Below, piece after piece: positions 1 to 59,036 of a DNA stretch of 64,000 nt. Source of the DNA: Spelaeicoccus albus. Lineage in GTDB: Bacteria > Actinomycetota > Actinomycetes > Actinomycetales > Brevibacteriaceae. Position numbers and translations under genes: made by a program. The number at the start of each line of letters is the position of its first letter. The first letter of the stretch is position 1. Under the pieces are notes generated by a model. The model was given only the letters and a program-made list of their open reading frames with translations, was not told where the DNA came from and did not search any database. The stretch lies in contig NZ_JACBZP010000001.1 in NCBI RefSeq assembly GCF_013409065.1, forward strand, positions 3,792,518 through 3,856,517, given 5' to 3'.

Positions 1-1512
1 GAAGCCGAGTACGCGAACCCGCCGGTCTGGGTCGGTGAAATGTACCTTGAGCTGCACCGCGGAACTTATACGTCGCAACTTCGCACAAAACAGGGAAATC
101 GCCGCAGCGAACACCTCTTGCGCGAAGCCGAACTATGGGCGGCGACGGCTGCCGTTCGAGCCGGGGCCGACTACCCCTACGACGAGTTGTCCACGGTCTG
201 GCACCAAGTGCTGCTGCAGCAGTTTCACGACATCTTGCCGGGCAGCTCGATTGCGTGGGTGGCGCAGGATGCCGAACGCCACTATGCGGATATCGCTGCA
301 CGGCTCGACCAGCTCATTGCCGATTCGGCGCGCCGACTCGTCGGGGACGGCGACCGAACACTCGTGTTGAACGCGGCGCCGCATGATCGCCACGGCGTAC
401 CGGCCATGGGAATCGCCGAACCGGTCGGAGCCGACGCCGGCGTCGAGGTAACCCGGGCTGGCGATGAGTACATGCTCGACAACGGCCGTATCCGAGCAGT
501 CGTGGATTCTTCCGGGCGGTTGACATCATTGCTCGACTACGCGACAGGCCGGGAAGCCGTCCCGGCGGGCGAATTCGGCAACTCGCTCGAGATCTATCGG
601 GATACGCCCAACCAATGGGATGCGTGGGATATCGATGCGCACTATCGACGGAATCGGCGGGTGCTGGACGCCGCCGACTCGGTGAGTCTCGTCCAGGAGG
701 ACGGCGATGTGCACGTCGTCGTCGAGAAGCATTTCGGCCGCTCGCAGATCAGGCAGACAATTTCGCTGGCCGCCGGCTCGGACTCGCTCGAGATCGCCAC
801 TGTCGTCGACTGGCACGAGGAAAAGAAGCTGCTCAAGGTCGCGTTTCCGCTCGATGTCCGGGCCGACCGGTCGGCGTCCGAAACTCAGTTCGGCCATGTC
901 TTCCGTCCGACGCACGAGAACACGTCGTGGGAAGCCGCGAAATTCGAGATCTGCGCCCACCGTTGGATTCACGTCGGCGAGCCCGGGTACGGCGTCGCGG
1001 TTGCGAACGATTCCACCTACGGCCACGACATCACGCGCGACGTGCGACCCGACGGCGGCACGACCACCTGGGTGCGGCCATCGCTGCTGCGCGCGCCGAC
1101 GTATCCCGATCCGCACAGCGACCAAGGCGAGCACACCATGCGTCTGACTGTTCGCCCCGGCGCGACGATCGCGGACGCCGTCGAAGAAGGCTACCGAGTG
1201 AATCTCACCGAGCGAACTCTCTCGGGCGGCCGGAGCGTCGACCCGTTGGTGACCGTCTCGAATCCGGCCGTCGTGGTCGAGGCCGTGAAACTTGCGGATG
1301 ATCGGAGCGGCGACGTCGTCGTGCGATTGTATGAATCCCGCGGCGAGCGCTCCGGCGCCACCGTCGCCGCAACGTTCGCCGCCGCGGGGACTACGGTGAC
1401 CGATCTCTTGGAACGGGACATCGAAGCTCCCGCCGGCGTTCACCTGGAGCAGCAATCGGCGACCGTGACGCTGCGTCCGTTCCAAATACTGACGCTGCGG
1501 TTCGCGCGGTAG
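1..1512 (+). CDS. alpha-mannosidase, GH38 family (5' end outside window)
   Basis: The reading frame is open from base 1 and ends with TAG at 1510-1512, so this is the C-terminal part (503 residues) of a protein that starts upstream. The first residues include the block VGEMYLELHRGTYTSQ, and the motif FHDILPGSSI lies about 85 residues in; both are typical of the central region of glycoside hydrolase family 38 alpha-mannosidases, which act on alpha-mannosides with a zinc-dependent retaining mechanism. The remainder matches the beta-sandwich C-terminal domains of the family. Full-length members are about 1000 residues, so roughly half is missing, including the N-terminal catalytic barrel with most metal ligands. 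No signal peptide can be assessed. The gene converges on the DUF6350 gene, with a large palindrome between them. Confidence 0.9.
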   Translation, partial: EAEYANPPVWVGEMYLELHRGTYTSQLRTKQGNRRSEHLLREAELWAATAAVRAGADYPYDELSTVWHQVLLQQFHDILPGSSIAWVAQDAERHYADIAARLDQLIADSARRLVGDGDRTLVLNAAPHDRHGVPAMGIAEPVGADAGVEVTRAGDEYMLDNGRIRAVVDSSGRLTSLLDYATGREAVPAGEFGNSLEIYRDTPNQWDAWDIDAHYRRNRRVLDAADSVSLVQEDGDVHVVVEKHFGRSQIRQTISLAAGSDSLEIATVVDWHEEKKLLKVAFPLDVRADRSASETQFGHVFRPTHENTSWEAAKFEICAHRWIHVGEPGYGVAVANDSTYGHDITRDVRPDGGTTTWVRPSLLRAPTYPDPHSDQGEHTMRLTVRPGATIADAVEEGYRVNLTERTLSGGRSVDPLVTVSNPAVVVEAVKLADDRSGDVVVRLYESRGERSGATVAATFAAAGTTVTDLLERDIEAPAGVHLEQQSATVTLRPFQILTLRFAR

Positions 1513-1647
1513 GCCGCGGCTTCAACCGTCGGGCACGGTTCGCAGGGTGGAGCGCGGCGGTTCACACGGTGGCGGCCAGGTACGCACCGTGGAGGCCGGC
1601 GCTGATTCCGGTCCGCCGAGTGGTGGCGAATGGTGGTGCCCTTCCAT

Positions 1648-1704
1648 CGAGTGGTGGTGAATGGCTGAATTTCGTGCCGAAATTCAGCCATTCACCACCA
1701 CTCG
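1648..1704. repeat. perfect palindrome, family A copy 1
   Basis: Two 26-bp arms (1648-1673 and 1679-1704) are exact reverse complements around a 5-base loop. The arm begins CGAGTGGTGGTGAATGG. A further half copy (CGAGTGGCGAATGG-like) lies at about 1617-1636. The same outer stem sequence recurs at 13.87 kb and 57.55 kb, while the inner part of the stem differs between copies. It lies between convergent genes, so it could act as a bidirectional terminator, but the recurrence suggests a dispersed REP-like element. Confidence 0.85.
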
Positions 1705-1740
1705 GCGCGGGAGGAAGGGCGCGGGAAGGCAGAAAGGGCG

Positions 1741-1804: not shown

Positions 1805-3172
1805 TCAGTCTTGGCGGCGAGTGCCGGACGACGCGAATTTGCGTTCCGCGCTACGCGCGCCGGAGGCGATCTGTTCGGCTGCCTTGCGGGATGTCGGCAC
1901 AATGCGCGGTCCGGCCAAAAGGGCCAGTGCCGCTCCGACGAAGGCGCCGGCCGCGCCGATCAGCGCGAATTGCACGGCGTGCGGCCCGGTCGTCATCAAC
2001 AGACCCGGGCCGACCGGGCCGCCGGACAACCCGCCAAGCACCCCAAGCAGCACTCCGGTTCCCACCCCGATCGACGCCGACGCGATCAGTTGTTCGGGCC
2101 ACGCGTCGATGCCCTTGGCCAGCATCCACCAGCCGGCCGCCAGCCCCGCCAGGGCCGGAACGACCACGAAGACACCCGCCCAATCAACCGCGTCGGTCGG
2201 TATTCCGGCGAGGACCGGGACGGCGGGAATCGGCCCGATGGTCGTACCGAACGGCGAGATGCTGCTGCCCGTCCCGAGTACGAATCCGGGGCCGGTCATC
2301 CAGCTGGACGCCCACACGACTAGGTTCGGGAGTGCCAACAGCTGGCCGAACGACAGCACTATTGCCCCGGTGCCGGTCGCTCCGAGCGTGCCGTACAGCG
2401 CCGCGAACTGGTGATGATGGACGATGATCGTCACGACAACCAACACGAACCCGGCCGCCAGAATGATCCCCGTACACAGGAGGACGGCGCGCACGGACGC
2501 CGCGGCAAAGTCGACGACGCCCTCGCCGACGAGCCCGACAAGTTTGGCGCGCAGCTTCGTCTGCGGATAGTCGTCCGCATCGTTTCGGTGCTTCTTCGGC
2601 AGGCGCAGCACGCCGACTCCGCCGGCTATGAGAGCCACCAGGAATGCGCCGCCGGCTGCTTGCCAGGGGTGTGTCGGCAACGGCTGCCGGCCCATGGCCG
2701 CCGATGTCGCGAGCGCGATCGCCCCGTAGACGACCGCCATGCACACCCACGAGATCAACGAAAAGTATCGAGAGACGGTGCCGGTACGCGCGGCTTTGCG
2801 TCGGGCCCGTGTGATGCCGCCGGCGATCGTCAGACGTCGTCCGGCCCGGTAGCACAGCCAAATCGGCAATGCCGTCACGAGCCACGGGACGAACCCGAAA
2901 CTCCCTCCGTCGTACGACACGGGCGCGCCGTGGCTGAGCAGCCAGACCTGCACGCTTGCCGCCACGACGGTGAACAACGTGCCGAGCGGGGACGTGCTCA
3001 AGATCCAGGCGATCACCGATACGACGGCCAGCATGATGATGCCGAGCAATGCGGCCTGTACACCTTCAAGGACCCCTAATGTCCATGGCGATCTGGTTCC
3101 GTCGTCACGGACATCGACACCGACGCTGGCGCGTTTCGGTGTCGGCTTGATGCGGGGGCGTCGTGAAGTCAT
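1805..3172 (-). CDS. DUF6350 family multi-pass membrane protein (PerM-like)
   Basis: The product is 455 residues and is almost entirely hydrophobic helices (about ten membrane segments) after a basic N-terminus rich in Arg/Lys. The composition and motifs resemble the actinobacterial DUF6350 family, whose mycobacterial relatives are sometimes named cell division protein PerM; a role in the division or stress envelope is known only for some relatives, so the function here is inference. The ATG at 3170-3172 (protein start MTSRRPRIKP) was chosen over an in-frame upstream extension to 3343 because the extension is Arg/Cys-rich and unlike the family. It is a single gene, with the next gene starting divergently at 3434. 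The C-terminus is charged and cytoplasmic-looking. Confidence 0.75.
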   Translation of the reverse strand: MTSRRPRIKPTPKRASVGVDVRDDGTRSPWTLGVLEGVQAALLGIIMLAVVSVIAWILSTSPLGTLFTVVAASVQVWLLSHGAPVSYDGGSFGFVPWLVTALPIWLCYRAGRRLTIAGGITRARRKAARTGTVSRYFSLISWVCMAVVYGAIALATSAAMGRQPLPTHPWQAAGGAFLVALIAGGVGVLRLPKKHRNDADDYPQTKLRAKLVGLVGEGVVDFAAASVRAVLLCTGIILAAGFVLVVVTIIVHHHQFAALYGTLGATGTGAIVLSFGQLLALPNLVVWASSWMTGPGFVLGTGSSISPFGTTIGPIPAVPVLAGIPTDAVDWAGVFVVVPALAGLAAGWWMLAKGIDAWPEQLIASASIGVGTGVLLGVLGGLSGGPVGPGLLMTTGPHAVQFALIGAAGAFVGAALALLAGPRIVPTSRKAAEQIASGARSAERKFASSGTRRQD

Positions 3173-4897: not shown

Positions 4898-6316
4898 TCA
4901 GTCCGGCCAGCTCTGGCGTGCCGATTCGGGCCGCGCCGATTCATACCACGCCGCCGCCCGGAGCACCTCCGGATCGGCGAACCGTCGTCCGGCGATCTGC
5001 AGCCCGATCGTGCGGCCGTCGGACGTGAATCCGCAATTCACGGACGCCGCGGGCTGCTCGGACATGTTGTACGGCGCCGCGAATCCGATATGCGCCATGC
5101 CGACGGACGGATCATTGAATGGCATGGGCCATTCGGCCGGGAACGCCGCAACCGGGCTCACGGGCGAGAGAACCAGGTCGAAATCCTTCGTCGCTCCGAT
5201 GGTGGCGGCGCGGATCCGCATGATGTCCTGATAACACCGCAGTACCTCGGCTCCCGATACATCGGCGCCCTGACGGCACCAGTCCGCGACGTACGGAAGG
5301 ATTCGGCGCTGGTTGTCGATTGTCAACGCCTGGTAATCCACCCAGCTGCGCACCCGCCAAAACCGGTCCAGCGAATCGAGCAGCCGCTGACTCATGAACG
5401 GTTCGATTCGGCTCACCGCCGCGCCGTTACCGGCGAACAGGTCCGCGGCAGCCGTCACTGCCTGCGCGATTTCCGGATCGACGGCCATCCCGCACCCGGC
5501 GTCCACCTGCACCCCGATCTTCAGCCCGCGCACCGATCCGCGGACTCCGTCGGTGCCTGCCGCGGGCAGCGTCCAGTCGAGCTCGGCGGCAGGCAGGTGC
5601 GAATAATCGCGGACGTCGGGCCGCCCGATGACCGACATCATCACGGCGAGGTCGTCGACGCGCCTGGCCAAGGGGCCGGCGCACCGCCCCAGATACGGCG
5701 CGTCCAACGCGACCCTTCCATAGCTCGGCTTCAGCGTGGCCAAGCCCAACCACGTTCCGGGAAGCCGGATGGAGCCGCCGATGTCCGAACCGACGTGTAC
5801 GGGGCCGTACCCGGCAGCGGCCGCCGCGCCTGCGCCCGCGCTCGACCCGCCGGTCGTCAGCTTCGGGTCGATCGGGCTGCGGGTAATGCCGTGCAGACTG
5901 GACACGCCCGATGAGAGCATCCCCCAGTCGGGCATGGTGGTCGACCCGACTATGACGCCGCCCGATTCCTCGATCCGGTCGGTGATCGGCGCGTTGGCGG
6001 CGGCCGGCGGCTGGTCGTTGCCGGCGTTGCCCGACGGCATGCCGACGCCGCGGCGGGCCACGTTCTCCTTCACCGTCACCGGCACGCCGTCCAGAACGCC
6101 GCGCGGCGTTCCGGCACGCCACCGATCGGCGCTGGCGAGGGCGTCGCGTCGGACGGCGTCCGGGTCGTGCACGTAGAACGCGTTGATGACGGGCTCGAAC
6201 TCGCCGACTCGGGCCAGGACGGCGTCCGCGACCTCGACCGGAGACAAAGTTCCGGCAGCGTACCCGCCGGTCATGTCCGCTGCCGAGAGCCCGGCCAAAT
6301 CGCGTTCATTCGTCAT
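4898..6316 (-). CDS. amidase (amidase signature family)
   Basis: The 472-residue protein hydrolyses an amide bond; the substrate cannot be told from sequence. The Ser-cisSer-Lys triad of the amidase signature family is intact: Lys83 in VTVKENV, cis-Ser158 in [16 protein letters not shown], and nucleophile Ser182 in GSDIGGSIRLPG. Length matches the family (450-500). It has no signal peptide, so it is cytosolic. It is the last gene of the minus-strand run from clpS, 102 bases after the MFS gene, and may have its own expression. The ATG at 6316 is preceded by GGAG (in CTGGAGGAGATCACG). Gene names such as gatA are not justified because gatB/gatC are not adjacent. Confidence 0.9.
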   Translation of the reverse strand: MTNERDLAGLSAADMTGGYAAGTLSPVEVADAVLARVGEFEPVINAFYVHDPDAVRRDALASADRWRAGTPRGVLDGVPVTVKENVARRGVGMPSGNAGNDQPPAAANAPITDRIEESGGVIVGSTTMPDWGMLSSGVSSLHGITRSPIDPKLTTGGSSAGAGAAAAAGYGPVHVGSDIGGSIRLPGTWLGLATLKPSYGRVALDAPYLGRCAGPLARRVDDLAVMMSVIGRPDVRDYSHLPAAELDWTLPAAGTDGVRGSVRGLKIGVQVDAGCGMAVDPEIAQAVTAAADLFAGNGAAVSRIEPFMSQRLLDSLDRFWRVRSWVDYQALTIDNQRRILPYVADWCRQGADVSGAEVLRCYQDIMRIRAATIGATKDFDLVLSPVSPVAAFPAEWPMPFNDPSVGMAHIGFAAPYNMSEQPAASVNCGFTSDGRTIGLQIAGRRFADPEVLRAAAWYESARPESARQSWPD

Positions 6317-11258: not shown

Positions 11259-11624
11259 TTACCCTTCCGAATCCTCGCGCTGGAACGTCGCCCACAGGCC
11301 GTAGCCGTGCATGGCCTCGGTGTCGCGTTCCATTTCTTCGCGCGAGCCACTCGCAACTACCGATTTGCCGTCGTTGTGAACTTGGAGCATGAGCTTTTCG
11401 GCCTTGGACTTCGAGTAGCCGAAGTAGCTGCGGAAGACATAGCTGACATAACTCATCAGATTGACCGGGTCGTTCCACACCAGCGTGACCCACGGCACGT
11501 CGCGGCGGGTCAGCAGGGCAGTGCTCGAGGCGGTCTCTTCGGCGGCGTCCGGCACCGCCGACTCATGCGACGCGGTGACGATTCCGGCATGCGGCACCGG
11601 GGGCGCATGGACATCGTTGGTCAT
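11259..11624 (-). CDS. clpS: ATP-dependent Clp protease adaptor ClpS
   Basis: A 121-residue ClpS that delivers N-degron substrates to the Clp chaperone. The core fold begins with [19 protein letters not shown], containing the Asn-Asp pair that binds the N-terminal residue of substrates, followed by [21 protein letters not shown]. An N-terminal extension of about 45 residues precedes the core, with Pro/Ala/Glu-rich composition as in other actinobacteria. The start is uncertain: ATG 11624 (MTNDVHAP) is preferred, but GTG at 11639 is in frame five codons upstream. A TACAGT -10-like hexamer at 11638-11643 overlaps the GTG, favouring the ATG, possibly with a very short leader. First gene of the operon. 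Confidence 0.9.
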
Positions 11625-13197: not shown

Positions 13198-13845
13198 ATG
13201 ACCGACACGAGAGCACTCGTCGTCGTCGACGTGCAAAACGACTTTTGCGAAGGCGGCGCGCTCGGCGTCGACGGGGGCAGCGGCGCAGCTGCCCGCATTG
13301 CCGAGCTTGTGGCCGGCGGCGGATACGACAGGGTTGCCGCAACGAAAGACTGGCACATCGATCCGGGCGCGCACTTTTCCGACGACCCGGATTATGTGAC
13401 GTCGTGGCCGGTGCATTGCCGCGCCGGCACGCCGGGAGCCGATTTTCACGAAGCGCTGGCCGACGCGCGGTTCGACGCCGTGTTCCTGAAGGGCCAATAT
13501 TCCGACGGATATTCCGGCTTCGACGCGGCCGCCGCGTCCGCCGACGTCGGCGGCCGGTGGGCCGAGGACGACGCGGCCCCAGCCGGCGCCGTCAATGCGG
13601 AGCCTGCCGATACCGGGCCTGCCGAAGCCGGCATCCCGCCGCTGGCCGGTTGGCTAGCGGGCGCCGATGTCGTCGACGTGGTCGGCCTGGCCACCGATCA
13701 TTGCGTGCGGGCGACCGCGCTGGACGCCGTCCGGCACGACTTTCGCGTGCGGGTGCTGCTGCAGTATTGCGCGGGTGTCTCCCCGGCAACCATTGACGCC
13801 GCACTTGCCGAGCTGAAATCGGCCGGCGTCGAGCTCATCGACTGA
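13198..13845 (+). CDS. pncA: nicotinamidase (isochorismatase family)
   Basis: A 215-residue nicotinamidase converting nicotinamide to nicotinate for the upstream PncB. The catalytic triad is visible: Asp11 (VVVDVQNDF), Lys98 (FLKGQYSDGYSGF) and Cys169 (LATDHCVRATALDAV). Metal ligands are Asp51 and His53 (KDWHID) and His73 (WPVHC). Between Lys98 and Cys169 there is an Ala/Glu/Pro-rich insertion (about residues 115-147) not found in short family members, so the protein is some 30 residues longer than a typical PncA. ATG start with AGGAGAG upstream. Confidence 0.93.
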   Translation: MTDTRALVVVDVQNDFCEGGALGVDGGSGAAARIAELVAGGGYDRVAATKDWHIDPGAHFSDDPDYVTSWPVHCRAGTPGADFHEALADARFDAVFLKGQYSDGYSGFDAAAASADVGGRWAEDDAAPAGAVNAEPADTGPAEAGIPPLAGWLAGADVVDVVGLATDHCVRATALDAVRHDFRVRVLLQYCAGVSPATIDAALAELKSAGVELID

Positions 13846-13866: not shown

Positions 13867-13930
13867 GCCAAGTGGCGGCGAATGGCTGCCCAAAGTGCAA
13901 AACGCCCACCATTGGCCGCCACTCGGTGGC
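13867..13930. repeat. imperfect palindrome, family A copy 2
   Basis: Outer arms GCCAAGTGGCGGCGAATGG and CCATTGGCCGCCACT-type sequence pair with a few mismatches around a non-conserved centre rich in AAAGTGCAAAACG. The stem sequence is the same family as at 1.65 kb and 57.55 kb (AGTGG(C/T)GGCGAATGG). It lies between convergent pncA and the helicase gene. Confidence 0.7.
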
Positions 13931-13970: not shown

Positions 13971-15782
13971 CTACTTCTTGCCGACAAACCAGCCGCGCAG
14001 CCTGTCGATCCGACGCTGCACCTCGTCCACGCTGGCCTGGGCCACGGCCGGCCCGCCGCACAGGCGCCGCAAATCCGAGTGGATGACGCCGTGCGGCTGG
14101 CCGGAACGCCGCGCCCAGGCCGACACGAGCGATTGCAGTTGCGAGCGCTGTTCCTTCAAGGCCCGGTGGATGGCGACCGTATCCTCTTCCGGCTCGGGGG
14201 CCGGCTTCTTCTTGGCGCGCTTTGAGACCTGCTCGGCCTGCCTGGCCCGTAACAGCTCGGTCACCTGCTCGGGTTCGAGCAGACCGGGGATGCCCAGATA
14301 GTCCTGCTCGTCATCGCTGCCCACGGCGCCGCCGGCGCCGAATTCGCCGCCGTCGAACAGCACCTTGTCGAACGACGCCTGCGCATCGAGGGTCTCGAAC
14401 GGCAGGGCCTCCTGCGTGGCGGACGCCCGCTCCTCTCGATTGGCCTCGGCAAGTGCGGCGTCTTCTTCGAAGAAGTCCTCGTCCGCGGCCGGCTTGTCGA
14501 GCGCATGGTCGCGTTCGAGTTCGAGCTGCCCGGCCATGGCCAGCAGTAACGGCACGCTCGGCAGGAAGATTGACGCGTTTTCACCGCGTTTTCGAGCGCG
14601 GACGAAACGCCCGACGGCCTGGGCAAAGAACAACGGCGTCGAGGTGGACGTCGCATAGACCCCGACCGACAACCGCGGCACGTCCACGCCCTCCGAGACC
14701 ATGCGTACCGCGACCATCCATCGACGGTCGGATTCGGTGAACTTCTCGATCCGGTCGCTTGCCGCCTTTTCATCAGACAGCACGAGAGTGGCGGCCTCGC
14801 CGGTGATCTCCCGCAAAATCTTCGCGTATGCGCGCGCGGTTTCCTGATCGGTAGCAATGACCAGCCCGCCGGCGTCCGGAACTCCGCGCCGTACCTCCGT
14901 CAACCGGCGGTCGGCTGCCGCCAGCACCGAGGGGATCCACTCGCCCTTCGGGTCCAGCGCCGTGCGCCAGGCACCGGCCGTGATGTCCTTCGTCGTGGCT
15001 TCGCCGAGCCGAGCAGTCATCTCGTCGCCGACTTTGGTGCGCCATCGCATTTCGCCCGAGTACGCCATGAAGATGACGGGACGGACGACGCCGTCCTCGA
15101 GCGCGCGCCCGTAACCGTAGTTGTAGTCGGCGGTCGACGTGCGGATGCCCTCGTCGTCCGGCACGTATTCAACGAACGGGATTGCGGCAGTGTCCGATCG
15201 GAACGGAGTGCCGGTGAGCGACAGGCGCCGGGTCGCCGGCTCGAATGCTTCCCGGATTCCGTCGCCCCAGCTGAGCGCGTCGCCGCCGTGATGCACTTCG
15301 TCGAGAATGACGAGGGTGCGGCCGGCTTCGGTGCGCGCCCGGTGCAGAGCCGGTTTACTGGCCACCTGCGCGTAGGTGACGGCGACGCCGTGGAAGTGTT
15401 TGCCGTGCCGGCCGTCGCTGTTCTTGAAGTTCGGGTCGAGCCGGATGTTCACGCGCGCGGCCGCGTCCGCCCACTGCCGTTTGAGGTGCTCGGTCGGCGC
15501 CACCACCGTCACGCGTTCGACGGTGTGGCGCGCCAACAGCTCGGACGCCAGCCGGAGCGCGAAGGTAGTCTTACCGGCGCCCGGCGTTGCGACGGCCAGG
15601 AAGTCGCGGGGTTCGTCGGCGAAATACCGCGTGAGTGCCTCGGCCTGCCAAGCGCGGAGCTTGCTGGCCGTACCCCATGCTGCGCGTTCGGGAAATGCGG
15701 GAGGAAGGTTCTCTGCCGCCGACGTTCCGACGACGGGGGCCGACTCGGTCTCGGCGGAAAATGGCGCGGTGGAGTTGCTCAA
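13971..15782 (-). CDS. DEAD/DEAH-like (DEVH) superfamily 2 helicase
   Basis: A 603-residue SF2 helicase. Motif I is ATPGAGKTT with Lys71; motif II is DEVH at 161-164 (LVILDEVHHGG); motif VI is QAVGRFVRARKRG at about residue 387. A Q-rich coiled segment and Lys/Arg-rich stretch (KRAKKKPAPEPEED) occupy the C-terminal 150 residues, giving an extra module after the two RecA-like domains. The family is conserved in actinobacteria next to DUF3039 genes as here (31-base gap). Nucleic-acid substrate unknown; resemblance to XPB/restriction-type helicases suggests DNA repair, but no nuclease domain is visible. Cytoplasmic. Confidence 0.85.
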   Translation of the reverse strand: MSNSTAPFSAETESAPVVGTSAAENLPPAFPERAAWGTASKLRAWQAEALTRYFADEPRDFLAVATPGAGKTTFALRLASELLARHTVERVTVVAPTEHLKRQWADAAARVNIRLDPNFKNSDGRHGKHFHGVAVTYAQVASKPALHRARTEAGRTLVILDEVHHGGDALSWGDGIREAFEPATRRLSLTGTPFRSDTAAIPFVEYVPDDEGIRTSTADYNYGYGRALEDGVVRPVIFMAYSGEMRWRTKVGDEMTARLGEATTKDITAGAWRTALDPKGEWIPSVLAAADRRLTEVRRGVPDAGGLVIATDQETARAYAKILREITGEAATLVLSDEKAASDRIEKFTESDRRWMVAVRMVSEGVDVPRLSVGVYATSTSTPLFFAQAVGRFVRARKRGENASIFLPSVPLLLAMAGQLELERDHALDKPAADEDFFEEDAALAEANREERASATQEALPFETLDAQASFDKVLFDGGEFGAGGAVGSDDEQDYLGIPGLLEPEQVTELLRARQAEQVSKRAKKKPAPEPEEDTVAIHRALKEQRSQLQSLVSAWARRSGQPHGVIHSDLRRLCGGPAVAQASVDEVQRRIDRLRGWFVGKK

Positions 15783-21346: not shown

Positions 21347-21360
21347 GCCCGTAATGGGTG

Positions 21361-21478
21361 TTCGGCGGTGTCCTACTCTCCCACATGGTCCCCCATGCAG
21401 TACCATCGGCGCTGGTAGGCTTAGCTTCCGGGTTCGGAATGGGACCGGGCGTTTCCCTACCGCTATGGCCGCCGTAAC
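21361..21478 (-). rRNA. rrf: 5S ribosomal RNA
   Basis: About 118 bases. Reads on the minus strand from GTTACGGCGGCCATAGCG to ACACCGCCGAAC, with the conserved CCCGGTCCCATTCCGAACCC loop and the complementary ends. Ends are set by analogy to other actinobacterial 5S genes, accurate to a few bases. Confidence 0.95.
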
Positions 21479-21543
21479 TGTATCGAAACGATCAACTCTC
21501 ACGTATTCACTTGTTGTGGTAGTGGATAGTTGGTTGTGTTTCG

Positions 21544-21563
21544 GGAACCGTATAGTGGACGCG
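21544..21563 (-). other. 3' half of 23S rRNA processing stalk
   Basis: The minus-strand RNA here contains CGCGUCCACUAUAC, which is complementary to the spacer RNA just before the 23S 5' end (24870-24889). 14 bases pair perfectly, extended by further G-C and G-U pairs. This is the usual RNase III stalk that brings both ends of pre-23S together. Confidence 0.75.
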
Positions 21564-21597
21564 TCATTTCTTGTATTTCAGAAGAAATAGTGTTTTG

Positions 21598-26760
<5,163 letters not shown>

Positions 26761-37272: not shown

Positions 37273-37342
37273 GTAAAACGCGGTGTGGCGTCGGGAACGC
37301 CCCGTTAGAACGGGGCGTTCCCGACGCCACACCGCGTTTTAC
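37273..37342. terminator. 70-bp perfect inverted repeat, family B copy 1 (candidate bidirectional terminator)
   Basis: Two 34-base arms (37273-37306 and 37309-37342), exact complements, around a 2-base centre; ends are GTAAAACGCG and CGCGTTTTAC. Between convergent echA-like and MHS genes, it could end both transcripts. A second element of exactly the same length and ends, ungapped about 70% identical, lies at 55337-55406 in a different context, which suggests a dispersed element rather than only a terminator. Confidence 0.75.
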
Positions 37343-49931: not shown

Positions 49932-50299
49932 CGGTGGAGGTGGGGGGAATCGAACCCCCGTCCGCTGGCACTTTGTCAGGACTTCTCCGGGTGCAGTCTG
50001 CTGTGCGTTTTCTCAGTCCCGGCGCTCTAGCAGACGTGTCGCCGACAGACTCAGTTACGTAAAAGTCCCAGCCGGCCCCGTAACATGACCGACCAGCAGT
50101 GGCTTCCTAGCTGACGTTAGACCCCGAGGCGGAAGCAACCCCGGACTAACGGATTACGCAGCTCGCTTAGGCAGCGAGGGCGAAATCGGTGCGATTAGAT
50201 TTGGCACCTATATTTTTGCAGAGGGCGTTTACGAGATAACTCTGCGTTCTCGACCCGCTTCTCCTGACGCAATGACCGGCGTCGAAACCGATCACCCCC
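49932..50299 (-). ncRNA. ssrA: tmRNA
   Basis: The 5' end GGGGGTGATCGGTTTCGAC pairs with the 3' acceptor ACCTCC, and the T-arm is GGGGGTTCGATTCCCCC. The tag reading frame (minus strand, 50205 to 50167) encodes AKSNRTDFALAA with stop TAA; the ending ALAA is the proteolysis signal. The 3' end is CCG in genomic sequence where CCA would be, so the final base must be added or edited. Length about 368 bases. smpB lies just upstream on the same strand. Confidence 0.95.
50167..50205 (-). other. tmRNA tag peptide frame
   Basis: Thirteen codons: resume GCC (Ala) then KSNRTDFALAA and TAA stop. The type of tag resembles those of Micrococcales. Confidence 0.9.
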
Positions 50300-56991: not shown

Positions 56992-57444
56992 ATGCCGATC
57001 GCCGATCGCCACGTTCTGCACGCAGATTCCTGGGCGCCCAGGACAATCGATGCCGTGCTGAAATTCGCCGATGAGTCACCGGTGCACCGCGACAACCAGA
57101 GCTTCGCGGTGGAACGCATCACCATCGAAGACCCCGACCAGTTCTCAATACTGTTCGAAGTGGACGGCCACGAGGGCATCTTGGGACTGCGCCTGCGTTC
57201 GGACATGAGCATCGACGAGATCTACGGCCTCGTCGAGGACGAATCGGTGCTCCCGTTCGACCGTGCCACGCCCGAGGACAACGGCTTCGACATCGTCACC
57301 GATCTGCTCGCCGAACCGTTTGGCGACGACGATCTGACCGAGCCGGACGAGGACGGCGTCCGCTGGCTGCGCTTGCACGAAGCGGACTACGAGCACCGCG
57401 AGACGTGGCTACGCCGGATCGCACGCCGGACGACGCGCTCCTGA
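56992..57444 (+). CDS. acidic hypothetical protein
   Basis: A 150-residue, Asp/Glu-rich protein with ATG at 56992 following AGAAGGGG. No signal peptide, membrane helix or known motif. Segments such as SILFEVDGHEGILGLRLRSDMSIDEIYGLVEDESVLPFDRATPEDNGF suggest a compact alpha/beta domain. It is 51 bases after the sugar transporter, so may be co-transcribed. Unrecognised. Confidence 0.65.
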   Translation: MPIADRHVLHADSWAPRTIDAVLKFADESPVHRDNQSFAVERITIEDPDQFSILFEVDGHEGILGLRLRSDMSIDEIYGLVEDESVLPFDRATPEDNGFDIVTDLLAEPFGDDDLTEPDEDGVRWLRLHEADYEHRETWLRRIARRTTRS

Positions 57445-57472: not shown

Positions 57473-57545
57473 CGCGTGCACTCCAGCCCCTCCATGTCCT
57501 CGTGCACTCCAGCCCTCGCCCGCGTGCACTCCAGCCCCTCCATGC
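57473..57545. repeat. GTGCACTCCAGCCC direct repeats
   Basis: Three direct copies (starts 57476, 57502, 57524) of GTGCACTCCAGCCC in the spacer after the acidic hypothetical gene, directly before the family A element. A short direct-repeat tract also lies next to the family A palindrome at 1.7 kb. Confidence 0.8.
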
Positions 57546-57548
57546 CCG

Positions 57549-57705
57549 CGCCGAGTGGTGGCGAATGGTTGCGAAATCGGCGATTTCGCAACCATTCGCC
57601 ACCACTCGGCGAGGCCGGACCGCCATTCGCCACCACTCGGCGAGGCCGGATCGCCATTCGCCACCACTCGGCGAGGGCGGATCGCCATTCGCCACCACTC
57701 GGCGA
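57549..57705. repeat. family A copy 3: 31-bp palindrome plus 31-bp tandem array
   Basis: A perfect inverted repeat, arms 57549-57579 and 57581-57611, with one central base. The right half, containing CCATTCGCCACCACTCGGCG, is then repeated three more times; CCATTCGCC starts at 57592, 57623, 57654 and 57685, an exact 31-base period. The stretch 57445-57830 has no gene that I can support. Confidence 0.9.
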
Positions 57706-57830: not shown

Positions 57831-59036
57831 GTGGACGCCATCAGCATCGTGGAAGACGAGGTGCGCGAACTCGTCCGCCGCCGCGGCCTCGACCCGCGTC
57901 ACGATCTGGACGCCACGCGCGCACTGATCGAGGACGCCGTTGCCGACTACGACGAGCGAGTCCTGTCCGGCGGGCTTCCCGACCTCGGCGAACGCGACGG
58001 CGCGATTTCACGCCTCGTCGACACGGTGTCCGGGTTCGGCCCGCTGCAGCCGTATTTGGACGACGACCAGATCGAGGAGATCTGGGTCAACGAGCCCGGC
58101 AAGGTATTCATCAGCCGGTCCGGAATCTCCGAACTGACACCCACCGTACTGACCGCCGAAATGGTCGACGAACTCGTCGAACGGATGCTCGCCACCTCCG
58201 GGCGCCGCATCGACGTCTCCTCCCCCTTTGTCGACGCCATGCTGCCGGGCGGGTCGCGACTGCACGTCGTCCTGCCGGGAATCACTCGACGACACATGTC
58301 CGTGAACATCCGCAAATTCGTCTGTCGCGCGCACACGCTCGGCGATCTTGTCGCAACCGGTACCGTCACGGACGAGGCCGCCCGGTTCCTCACCGGCGCA
58401 GTGCGTTCCGGGCTCAACGTGGTCGTATCGGGAGCAACTCAGGCCGGAAAGACCACGATGTTGGGCACTTTGGCGGCCGCGATCCCGGCCCGCGAGCGCG
58501 TCATCAGTTGTGAAGAGGTTTTCGAACTCGACTTGAGCGTGCGCGACTGGGTCGCGATGCAGTGCCGTCAGCCCTCCCTGGAAGGAACCGGCGCCGTCCC
58601 GCTGCGCACCCTTGTCACCGAAGCACTGCGCATGCGCCCCACTCGCGTCATCGTCGGCGAAGTGCGACAGGCGGAGACCCTCGACCTGCTGATCGCGCTC
58701 AATTCGGGACTGCCGGGCATGACGTCGGTGCACGCCAATTCGGCACGCACGGCGATCACGAAATTGTGCACGCTTCCCTTGCTGGCCGGCGACAACGTGT
58801 CATCGCGGTTCGTCGTCCCGACCGTCGCGGCATGCGTCGACGTCGTTGTGCACATGCGCTTGGACAAGTCCGGACGCCGGCGGGTCGCCGAGATCGCGGC
58901 AGTGCCCGGCCAGGTCGAGGGCGACGCCGTCGCCACCGAGACCCTGTTCGTCGAACGGTCGGGCGCACTCGTCAAGACCGGCGGCTTCACGGCGGCCGCC
59001 GAACGCTTCACGGCCGCCGATCAGGAGGCCGAGTGA
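57831..59036 (+). CDS. tadA: CpaF/TadA-type pilus ATPase
   Basis: A 401-residue VirB11-like secretion ATPase: Walker A GATQAGKTTML, and the Asp/His-box segment MRPTRVIVGEVRQAETLDLL plus MTSVHANSARTAI. It starts with GTG at 57831, with GGGGAG eight bases upstream. First gene of the Tad-like locus; a tadZ/cpaE (ssd) gene, often upstream, is not present here. Confidence 0.92.
   Translation: MDAISIVEDEVRELVRRRGLDPRHDLDATRALIEDAVADYDERVLSGGLPDLGERDGAISRLVDTVSGFGPLQPYLDDDQIEEIWVNEPGKVFISRSGISELTPTVLTAEMVDELVERMLATSGRRIDVSSPFVDAMLPGGSRLHVVLPGITRRHMSVNIRKFVCRAHTLGDLVATGTVTDEAARFLTGAVRSGLNVVVSGATQAGKTTMLGTLAAAIPARERVISCEEVFELDLSVRDWVAMQCRQPSLEGTGAVPLRTLVTEALRMRPTRVIVGEVRQAETLDLLIALNSGLPGMTSVHANSARTAITKLCTLPLLAGDNVSSRFVVPTVAACVDVVVHMRLDKSGRRRVAEIAAVPGQVEGDAVATETLFVERSGALVKTGGFTAAAERFTAADQEAE

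Follow-up and report, generated by a model that had tools for sequence, protein, structure and literature searches.

The genome of Spelaeicoccus albus, a single contig of 4,029,871 bases (4.03 Mb), carries a family of palindromic elements, each a 61-bp hairpin with a stem of about 29 bp and a 3-nt loop, one per locus, at at least 83 loci. The reading that we favor, with modest confidence and from the sequence itself, is that these are genome-specific, REP/BIME-like hairpins at gene ends, without a RAYT, that would mark a transcript boundary for transcription arriving from either side. The newly recognized feature of the family is its arrays of half-units, which stand in fixed register beside the hairpins.

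The hairpin family in the window and in the genome

The window, by which we mean the whole stretch of 64,000 nucleotides that was analyzed, covers positions 3792518-3856517 of the contig. An earlier note on this DNA had described inverted repeats at 1648-1704, 13867-13930 and 57549-57611; all three are present, with the hairpin boundaries given in Table 1. The 20-mer stem that it singled out has three matches in the window with up to 3 mismatches, against 0.01 expected. Its wording "perfect or near-perfect" suits the hairpin at 57550-57610 and not the copy at 13867, which is imperfect and forms a separate subtype. Scanning with the 16-bp core GAGTGGTGGCGAATGG (up to 3 mismatches) gave 11 matches in the window against 0.92 expected, a number reached by none of 100 shuffles; the match at 26653, inside the 16S rRNA gene, is a chance one. 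The direct repeats reported next to two of the sites turned out to be further arm copies of the hairpin, set 31 bp apart. Hairpins 1 and 2 are followed by a convergent gene and hairpin 3 by a tandem one. The T2SSE protein encoded by the latter has its best matches in Cellulomonas and Brevibacterium daeguense (65% in both) and a match of 62% in Sediminivirga luteola.

Table 1. Hairpins, outer half-units, neighboring genes and other features of the window (window coordinates; gene limits from our own calls).
Feature	Position	Strand	Remarks
Outer half-unit	1618..1633	+	Core with 0 mismatches, 31 bp upstream of hairpin 1 arm
Hairpin 1	1646..1706	.	Variant inner stem CTGAATTTCG, 3-nt loop
Hairpin 2	13867..13927	.	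Imperfect subtype, inner CTGCCCAAAGTGCAAAACGCCCA; also at genome loci 113080 and 2633585
Hairpin 3	57550..57610	.	Stem perfect, inner TTGCGAAATCGGCGATTTCGCAA
Right-hand array of hairpin 3, outer half-unit 1	57623..57638	-	Preceded by 15-bp spacer
Right-hand array of hairpin 3, outer half-unit 2	57654..57669	-	
Right-hand array of hairpin 3, outer half-unit 3	57685..57700	-	
Gene 5' of hairpin 1	40..1512	+	GH38 alpha-mannosidase middle and C-terminal domains; start possibly outside window
Gene converging on hairpin 1	1805..3049	-	DUF6350; uncertain start codon
Gene 5' of hairpin 2	13198..13845	+	Isochorismatase family
Gene converging on hairpin 2	13971..15782	-	DEAD/ResIII helicase
Gene 5' of hairpin 3	56992..57444	+	150 aa, without Pfam match
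Gene 3' of hairpin 3	57831..59036	+	Type II/IV secretion ATPase (T2SSE)
Short direct repeats GTGCACTCCAGCCC	57475-57540		Directly 5' of hairpin 3; unlike the half-units
5S, 23S and 16S rRNA genes	21360-26760	-	
tmRNA gene	49932-50299	-	

The three loci of the earlier note hold for the window, but the family in the genome is far larger, and the copies are related beyond the noted stem. With up to 2 mismatches the core has 135 + 138 = 273 matches genome-wide, compared with 3 for a reversed control, and a hairpin pattern of two inward-facing cores with 23 unconstrained bases between them (up to 3 mismatches) has 81 matches on each strand, compared with 0 for its reversed control. A genome-wide covariance search, in which 150 of 4206 candidates were scored, produced 150 hits at 77 places; these hits and 5 more core matches were merged into 73 regions, 70 of them fetched and 3 taken from the window. 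The regions yielded 86 core-match clusters after five weak lone matches had been removed. Five clusters are the second half of a locus split by an insertion sequence (IS), which leaves 81 loci, and a 464-kb systematic sample adds 2 to give the 83.

Wherever both orientations occur in a cluster, the order is plus-strand cores, inverted pair, minus-strand cores. The inverted pair is spaced by 39 bp in 77 of 78 intact cases and by 35 bp in the remaining one. Of the 19 copies that were folded, 18 form a 26-29 bp stem closed by a 3-nt loop at -50 to -60 kcal/mol, and the copy at 13867 gave an imperfect fold of -30 kcal/mol. The element ends in GCC/GGC, and position frequencies give CGCC as the consensus before the core. 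As claimed earlier, the outer part of the stem is conserved and the inner part variable: the core is nearly invariant, a conservation partly built in because units were gathered with up to 3 mismatches to it, and the inner stem changes in a compensatory fashion. Fifty-four of 77 hairpins are fully paired over the 16-bp core and the 10-bp inner stem, while the loop is constant in length and free in sequence (26 types in 77 hairpins).

Compensation was quantified in 71 distinct sequences, where 18 of 29 pairs are altered on both sides. Cells changed on both sides number 113, against 22.2 ± 3.9 in shuffled alignments, none of 500 shuffles reaching 113, although these cell counts overstate the number of events because the sequences are related. 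Slid structures used as a control have 5-9 pairs changed on both sides. Columns 24 and 38, for example, are GC in 44 sequences, AU in 17, CG in 5, UA in 2, GU in 2 and unpaired in 1. Most copies came from a search model that includes pairing, and the center-free pattern recovers about the same number. Over the 26 core and inner pairs there are 12 G-T cells and 17 A-C cells; G-T is thus no commoner than A-C, and RNA pairing is not favored over DNA symmetry. An Rfam scan of the window at the gathering-score threshold returned rRNA and tmRNA only, and a known RNA family was rejected.

Placement at gene ends

Gene boundaries were taken from a home-made codon-usage caller. For the analysis of context we used 73 of the 86 clusters, the 13 removed being 3 lone remnants and 10 clusters within 60 bp of an IS copy. 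Thirty-two of the 73 lie between convergent genes, 36 between tandem genes (19 ++, 17 --) and 5 between divergent genes, compared with 26 convergent, 114 tandem (51 ++, 63 --) and 50 divergent among background gaps of at least 60 bp (counted in the window and 20 systematic stretches, 464 kb in all, a few element-bearing gaps being kept in). Fisher tests give p = 6e-7 for the convergent excess and p = 3e-4 for the divergent depletion. At 100 element-bearing ends the distance to the stop codon, on our own gene calls, has a median of 30.5 bp with quartiles of 22 and 56, and no distance is negative; the upstream stop is the closer one in 34 of 36 tandem cases. On the same calls all three window copies do lie after the 3' end of a gene on the plus strand, as observed earlier. 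Around the chromosome the copies are distributed like random points, with no local clustering. The earlier description "dispersed REP-like or terminator-like" was therefore apt as to location, the copies being scattered, extragenic and at the 3' ends of called genes.

Within 10 bp of the element the flanks have C at 0.60 and G at 0.21 on the strand reading toward the hairpin, a bias that fades by about 40 bp. Five of the 100 element-bearing ends and 2 of 118 background ends pass a test for a hairpin followed by a T-run, a test that overlooks terminators whose stem contains the T-run. Of the two features of an intrinsic terminator, the family thus has the GC-rich hairpin after the stop codon and lacks the U-tract. 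Several other long hairpins of the genome end in an A-run/T-run, unlike the GCC/GGC-ended family. Hairpins of at least 12 bp occur at 30 of the 118 element-free gene ends (counted without a shuffled control), and gene-end hairpins are therefore not peculiar to the family.

This anatomy fits a gene-end hairpin that works from both sides, a function that we infer from position. The gene-end distribution would equally be expected if copies inserted at random and those in promoters and genes were then lost, and the five divergent placements count against a boundary.

Phased half-units and growth of the arrays

Outer half-units were sought with a 23-position profile over 154 hairpin sides, a lower threshold giving the same result. 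Eighty-nine of the 90 units found lie at 31-32, 41-42, 62-63 or 93 bp (31 bp, 65 units; 32, 1; 41, 6; 42, 1; 62, 11; 63, 2; 93, 3). The exception, at 55 bp (locus L106), sits 24 bp outside a 31-bp unit, and locus L099 has a weak unit with 3 mismatches at 49 bp, below the profile threshold. No outer unit in the opposite orientation was found by the profile on any of the 154 sides. By core match the nearest outer unit (n = 76) is at 31 bp in 65 cases, at 41 in six, at 63 in two and at 42, 32 and 49 in one each; 78 of the 154 sides have no outer unit. The arrays show no polarity relative to transcription, 10 of the 36 tandem cases having (1,2) units and 10 having (2,1).

The 11 nearest units that are not at 31 bp fall within 1 bp of whole helical turns in 10 cases at 10.4 bp per turn, in 7 at 10.3 and in 4 at both 10.5 and 10.6, the 41-bp distance lying exactly on the 1-bp limit at 10.5. 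Because the count shifts in this way, the claim of phasing depends partly on the helical repeat that is assumed. The six 41-bp spacers are unrelated by eye save in composition, and the 41-bp step therefore seems to have arisen more than once.

Growth of the arrays was examined in units at 31-bp spacing (83 spacers from 63 loci). Within one locus, spacers from the same side agree at 13-15 of 15 positions in 17 of 17 comparisons (11 arrays) and spacers from opposite sides of the hairpin at 3-8 of 15 in 7 of 7 comparisons; between loci the mean is 8.4 of 15, a figure inflated by common ends and C-rich composition. The 12 bases beyond the outermost unit match the adjacent spacer at 7.07 positions on average, compared with 6.02 ± 0.16 for shuffled partners (68 arrays), and only 6 of the 68 keep flank and spacer alike at 11-12 of the 12 bases. 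These comparisons fit arrays that grow when a 31-bp block, consisting of core and local flank, is duplicated in tandem, in most cases with later divergence. The near-constant length of the block could come either from a mechanism of fixed length or from selection that preserves the register.

For the phased half-units, binding at the DNA level is a better explanation than action as RNA. In one alternative, such binding comes first: a 23-bp site, CGCCGAGTGGTGGCGAATGGCTG, would be recognized by a putative nucleoid or topology protein, the paired and phased sites would form a boundary separating transcription units, and the hairpin would be secondary. A core that is nearly invariant beside spacers that are unrelated between loci is what such a site predicts, as is the preference of the nearest outer unit for 31 bp (65 of 76 cases), with 10 of the 11 others near whole turns at 10.4 bp. 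The latter argument weakens at the other helical repeats (7 of 11 at 10.3, 4 of 11 at 10.5 and 10.6), half-units are absent from the 78 sides noted above, and binding to the core does not account for an inner stem that is paired yet variable. We consider this alternative rather unlikely.

Copying of the hairpin and its relatives

A rare inner stem, CGGCAAAATC, is common to five loci, and the imperfect type, CTGCC.AAA...CAAAACGCCC, is found at three (113080, 2633585 and window 13870). The occurrence of rare inner stems at distant loci indicates that whole hairpins were copied. The members of the imperfect subtype, the window copy at 13867 among them, have an asymmetric center in common and are possibly an older or separately spread lineage.

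A RAYT-type transposase, whose presence the earlier note had suggested checking, was not found: the Y1_Tnp domain (PF01797) has no match in the home genome or in the 59 other family genomes (0 of 60 with home included), compared with positive results in 5 of 14 control genomes. The earlier remark that no transposase lies nearby thus extends, for Y1_Tnp, to the whole genome, and a RAYT-driven REP was rejected. The Y1 family, the one that was searched, yields no mobilizer, and no target-site duplication of the hairpin element was noticed when the flanks were viewed by eye. A viral origin was likewise rejected, with 0 exact 20-mer matches in viral_contigs.

Relatives of the hairpin are few. An exact-arm hairpin scan of genome_contigs, a set that may omit the home genome or a near relative, gave 0 matches. 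Among 98 relatives excluding home, 8 have a single core match each (up to 1 mismatch), and the loci viewed in 7 of these 8 are by eye not hairpins of the family type. In an order-level draw that overlaps this set, the hairpin pattern occurs once or twice in each of 4 genomes out of 395 besides home; the palindromy of these matches is built in because the pattern demands inverted arms. A covariance search of 60 family genomes with stricter filters gave 5 weak hits in 3 non-home genomes, the best scoring 40.2 bits against 89.8 at home. One genome of another family of the same order (G133) has two hairpins that share the 23-nt inner length of the family and have the core CTGGTGGC(G/C)AATGG; one of them has GCC/GGC feet, and 12 other genomes of its family have no such hairpins; judged on sequence, the two are likely a relative of the family, or chance aided by the search.

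Long palindromes of other kinds were also seen. In 400-kb samples a palindrome finder listed 31 in genome G036, which belongs to another genus of the same family as the home genome, 9 in genome G003 and 21 in the home genome, five of these from the hairpin family; in 381 kb of loci from named genomes, mostly Cellulomonas, it listed 21. Long palindromes are therefore not rare in the group, and some form families. G036 has a family of 56-bp near-perfect palindromes (CTACCTGACGGCGG..., loci L253, L257 and L264), the 25-base left arm of which has six near-matches in the sample; extra half-units were not seen there. In the home genome a second long palindrome type with ends AAAACGCG...CGCGTTTT occurs at window 37273-37342, where its arms are perfect over 34 bp, at 14145 of locus L141 and at 11342 of locus L131, and is apparently dispersed too. 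Palindromes of 58-66 bp with the common arm motif GGTTTGTC lie at 2576 of locus L127 and 587 of locus L136 in the home genome and at 5939 of locus L276 in G003, and so occur in two genera of the family.

The copying of whole hairpins could also be that of a selfish repeat, a MITE-like or REP-like palindrome mobilized by a lost or other transposase and tolerated at gene ends. The element would then have no host function, and the identity of its arms would come from the needs of the transposase or from template switching. Rare inner stems common to distant loci speak for this, as do restriction to one genome (matches in 8 of 98 relatives and 4 of 395 order genomes, in overlapping sets), copies spread like random points and the avoidance of divergent gaps. 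Against it stand the lack of a mobilizer among the Y1 family and of a target-site duplication noticed by eye, and it leaves both the proximity to stop codons and the quantized spacing of the outer units unaccounted for. We regard such an origin as possible but doubtful.

Insertion sequences that land on the hairpins

Two IS types use the family as a landing site. The first is an IS110-type element with DEDD_Tnp_IS110 and Transposase_20 domains, present as four full-length copies of 100% identity at 583510, 1876234 (reverse), 1944136 and 3785030 of the genome; partial relatives at 66% occur in the same genome, and a search of plasmids with its protein returned many relatives, ten listed rows being 45-54% identical. 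Its left end adjoins the hairpin foot ...CCACCACTC in all four copies, the far junction being seen for three. The non-coding left end carries CCACCACTCGGC, 12 bases that repeat the target as it reads across the junction and might be a candidate bridge-RNA guide.

The second is an integrase-core element (rve, rve_3) with four full or near-full copies of 100% identity, which we take to be IS481-like from its TGT...ACA ends. The copies lie at about 667200-668660, 732240-733670, 971000-972430 and 3465720-3467150 of the genome, each with a 15-bp direct duplication by eye. Three are at the hairpin apex (loci L065, L068 and L115) and the fourth (L074) is next to a hairpin, within the spacer, where the duplicated target begins 1 bp past the arm. 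With the fourth copy counted as beside the element, about 16 bp out, all 8 full copies of both types are in or beside family hairpins, and since the mapped elements cover 0.19% of the genome this is far above chance; both types had been chosen because they were first noticed at the elements.

IS110-family elements are known to target REPs, for example IS621, ISPa11, ISPpu9, ISPpu10 and ISRm19 (PMC1525189 and PMC11208160), and the insertion at one exact palindrome position in 4 of 4 copies resembles this. The palindrome here is a different one, however, and there is a second user, the IS481-like element; the term IS481 has 0 occurrences in PMC1525189.

Relation to known repeat classes

REP and REPIN elements lie at gene ends, and BIME arrays grow at a locus. 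The family is like REP/REPIN in being extragenic, palindromic, high in copy number and an IS target; it differs in its 61-bp length and fixed 3-nt loop and in the absence of both the GTAG tag and the Y1 transposase. In the loose sense, in which a REP is any repeated extragenic palindrome 21-65 bases long (PMC1525189), it is a REP, at 61 bp and with 81 pattern copies. It is not one in the strict sense, as position frequencies show no GTAG and there is no RAYT. The label REP-like or terminator-like given earlier holds up, with the GTAG tag, the RAYT and a classical U-tract all missing.

A BIME combines regularly spaced repeat units in alternating orientation (PMC2817692). The arrays share the joining of regularly spaced units and not the alternation (0 opposite units on 154 sides); each has a single central inversion, with the units of one side all in the same orientation. 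CGTC-tagged palindromic repeats, including the Rickettsia RPE, are another palindromic family without a dedicated transposase (PMC3733652), but the present family has no constant CGTC tag, CGCC being its consensus before the core. No published description of the element was found in a partial search of the literature.

Discussion

Under the gene-end boundary that we favor, transcription from either side would let the hairpin fold in the RNA and mark the 3' end, presumably by terminating, by pausing or by blocking 3' exonucleases. As the hairpin would fold from either side, it could serve as a boundary in both directions, chiefly where genes converge. Half-units at 31-bp steps, which flank it on one or both sides at many loci, multiply through local tandem duplication, and their core, kept in register by roughly 3 or 4 turns of the helix, may in addition be a DNA-binding site for a host protein. 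IS110-type and IS481-like elements use the hairpin as a landing site.

That these are ordinary intrinsic terminators alike by accident, as their place directly after stop codons and the high stability of the hairpins (-50 to -60 kcal/mol for 18 of the 19 copies that were folded) might suggest, is very unlikely, because one 16-bp core is shared by at least 83 loci and the half-units form phased arrays, and besides this 95 of 100 ends fail the U-tract test and it is other long hairpins of the genome that carry A-run/T-run ends.

A more specific form of the gene-end boundary is one that we advance only tentatively. In it a perfect hairpin and arrays of a 23-bp putative protein site at 3 or 4 turns would together make a phased boundary, spread without a RAYT, that marks where some 80-100 transcription units end. 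If this were true, long palindromes in related genomes, such as the two hairpins of G133, would make the family a lineage-specific form of a wider actinobacterial class.

REP-like elements have been described mostly from proteobacteria, together with RAYT transposases. The genome of S. albus offers a high-copy family of gene-end palindromes without a Y1 transposase, with copies of the arm in fixed register and two unrelated IS users. It thereby allows two questions to be put: by what route REP-like repeats spread when no RAYT is present, and whether they serve as devices at transcript ends, serve as boundaries that bind protein or are just passengers that the genome tolerates.
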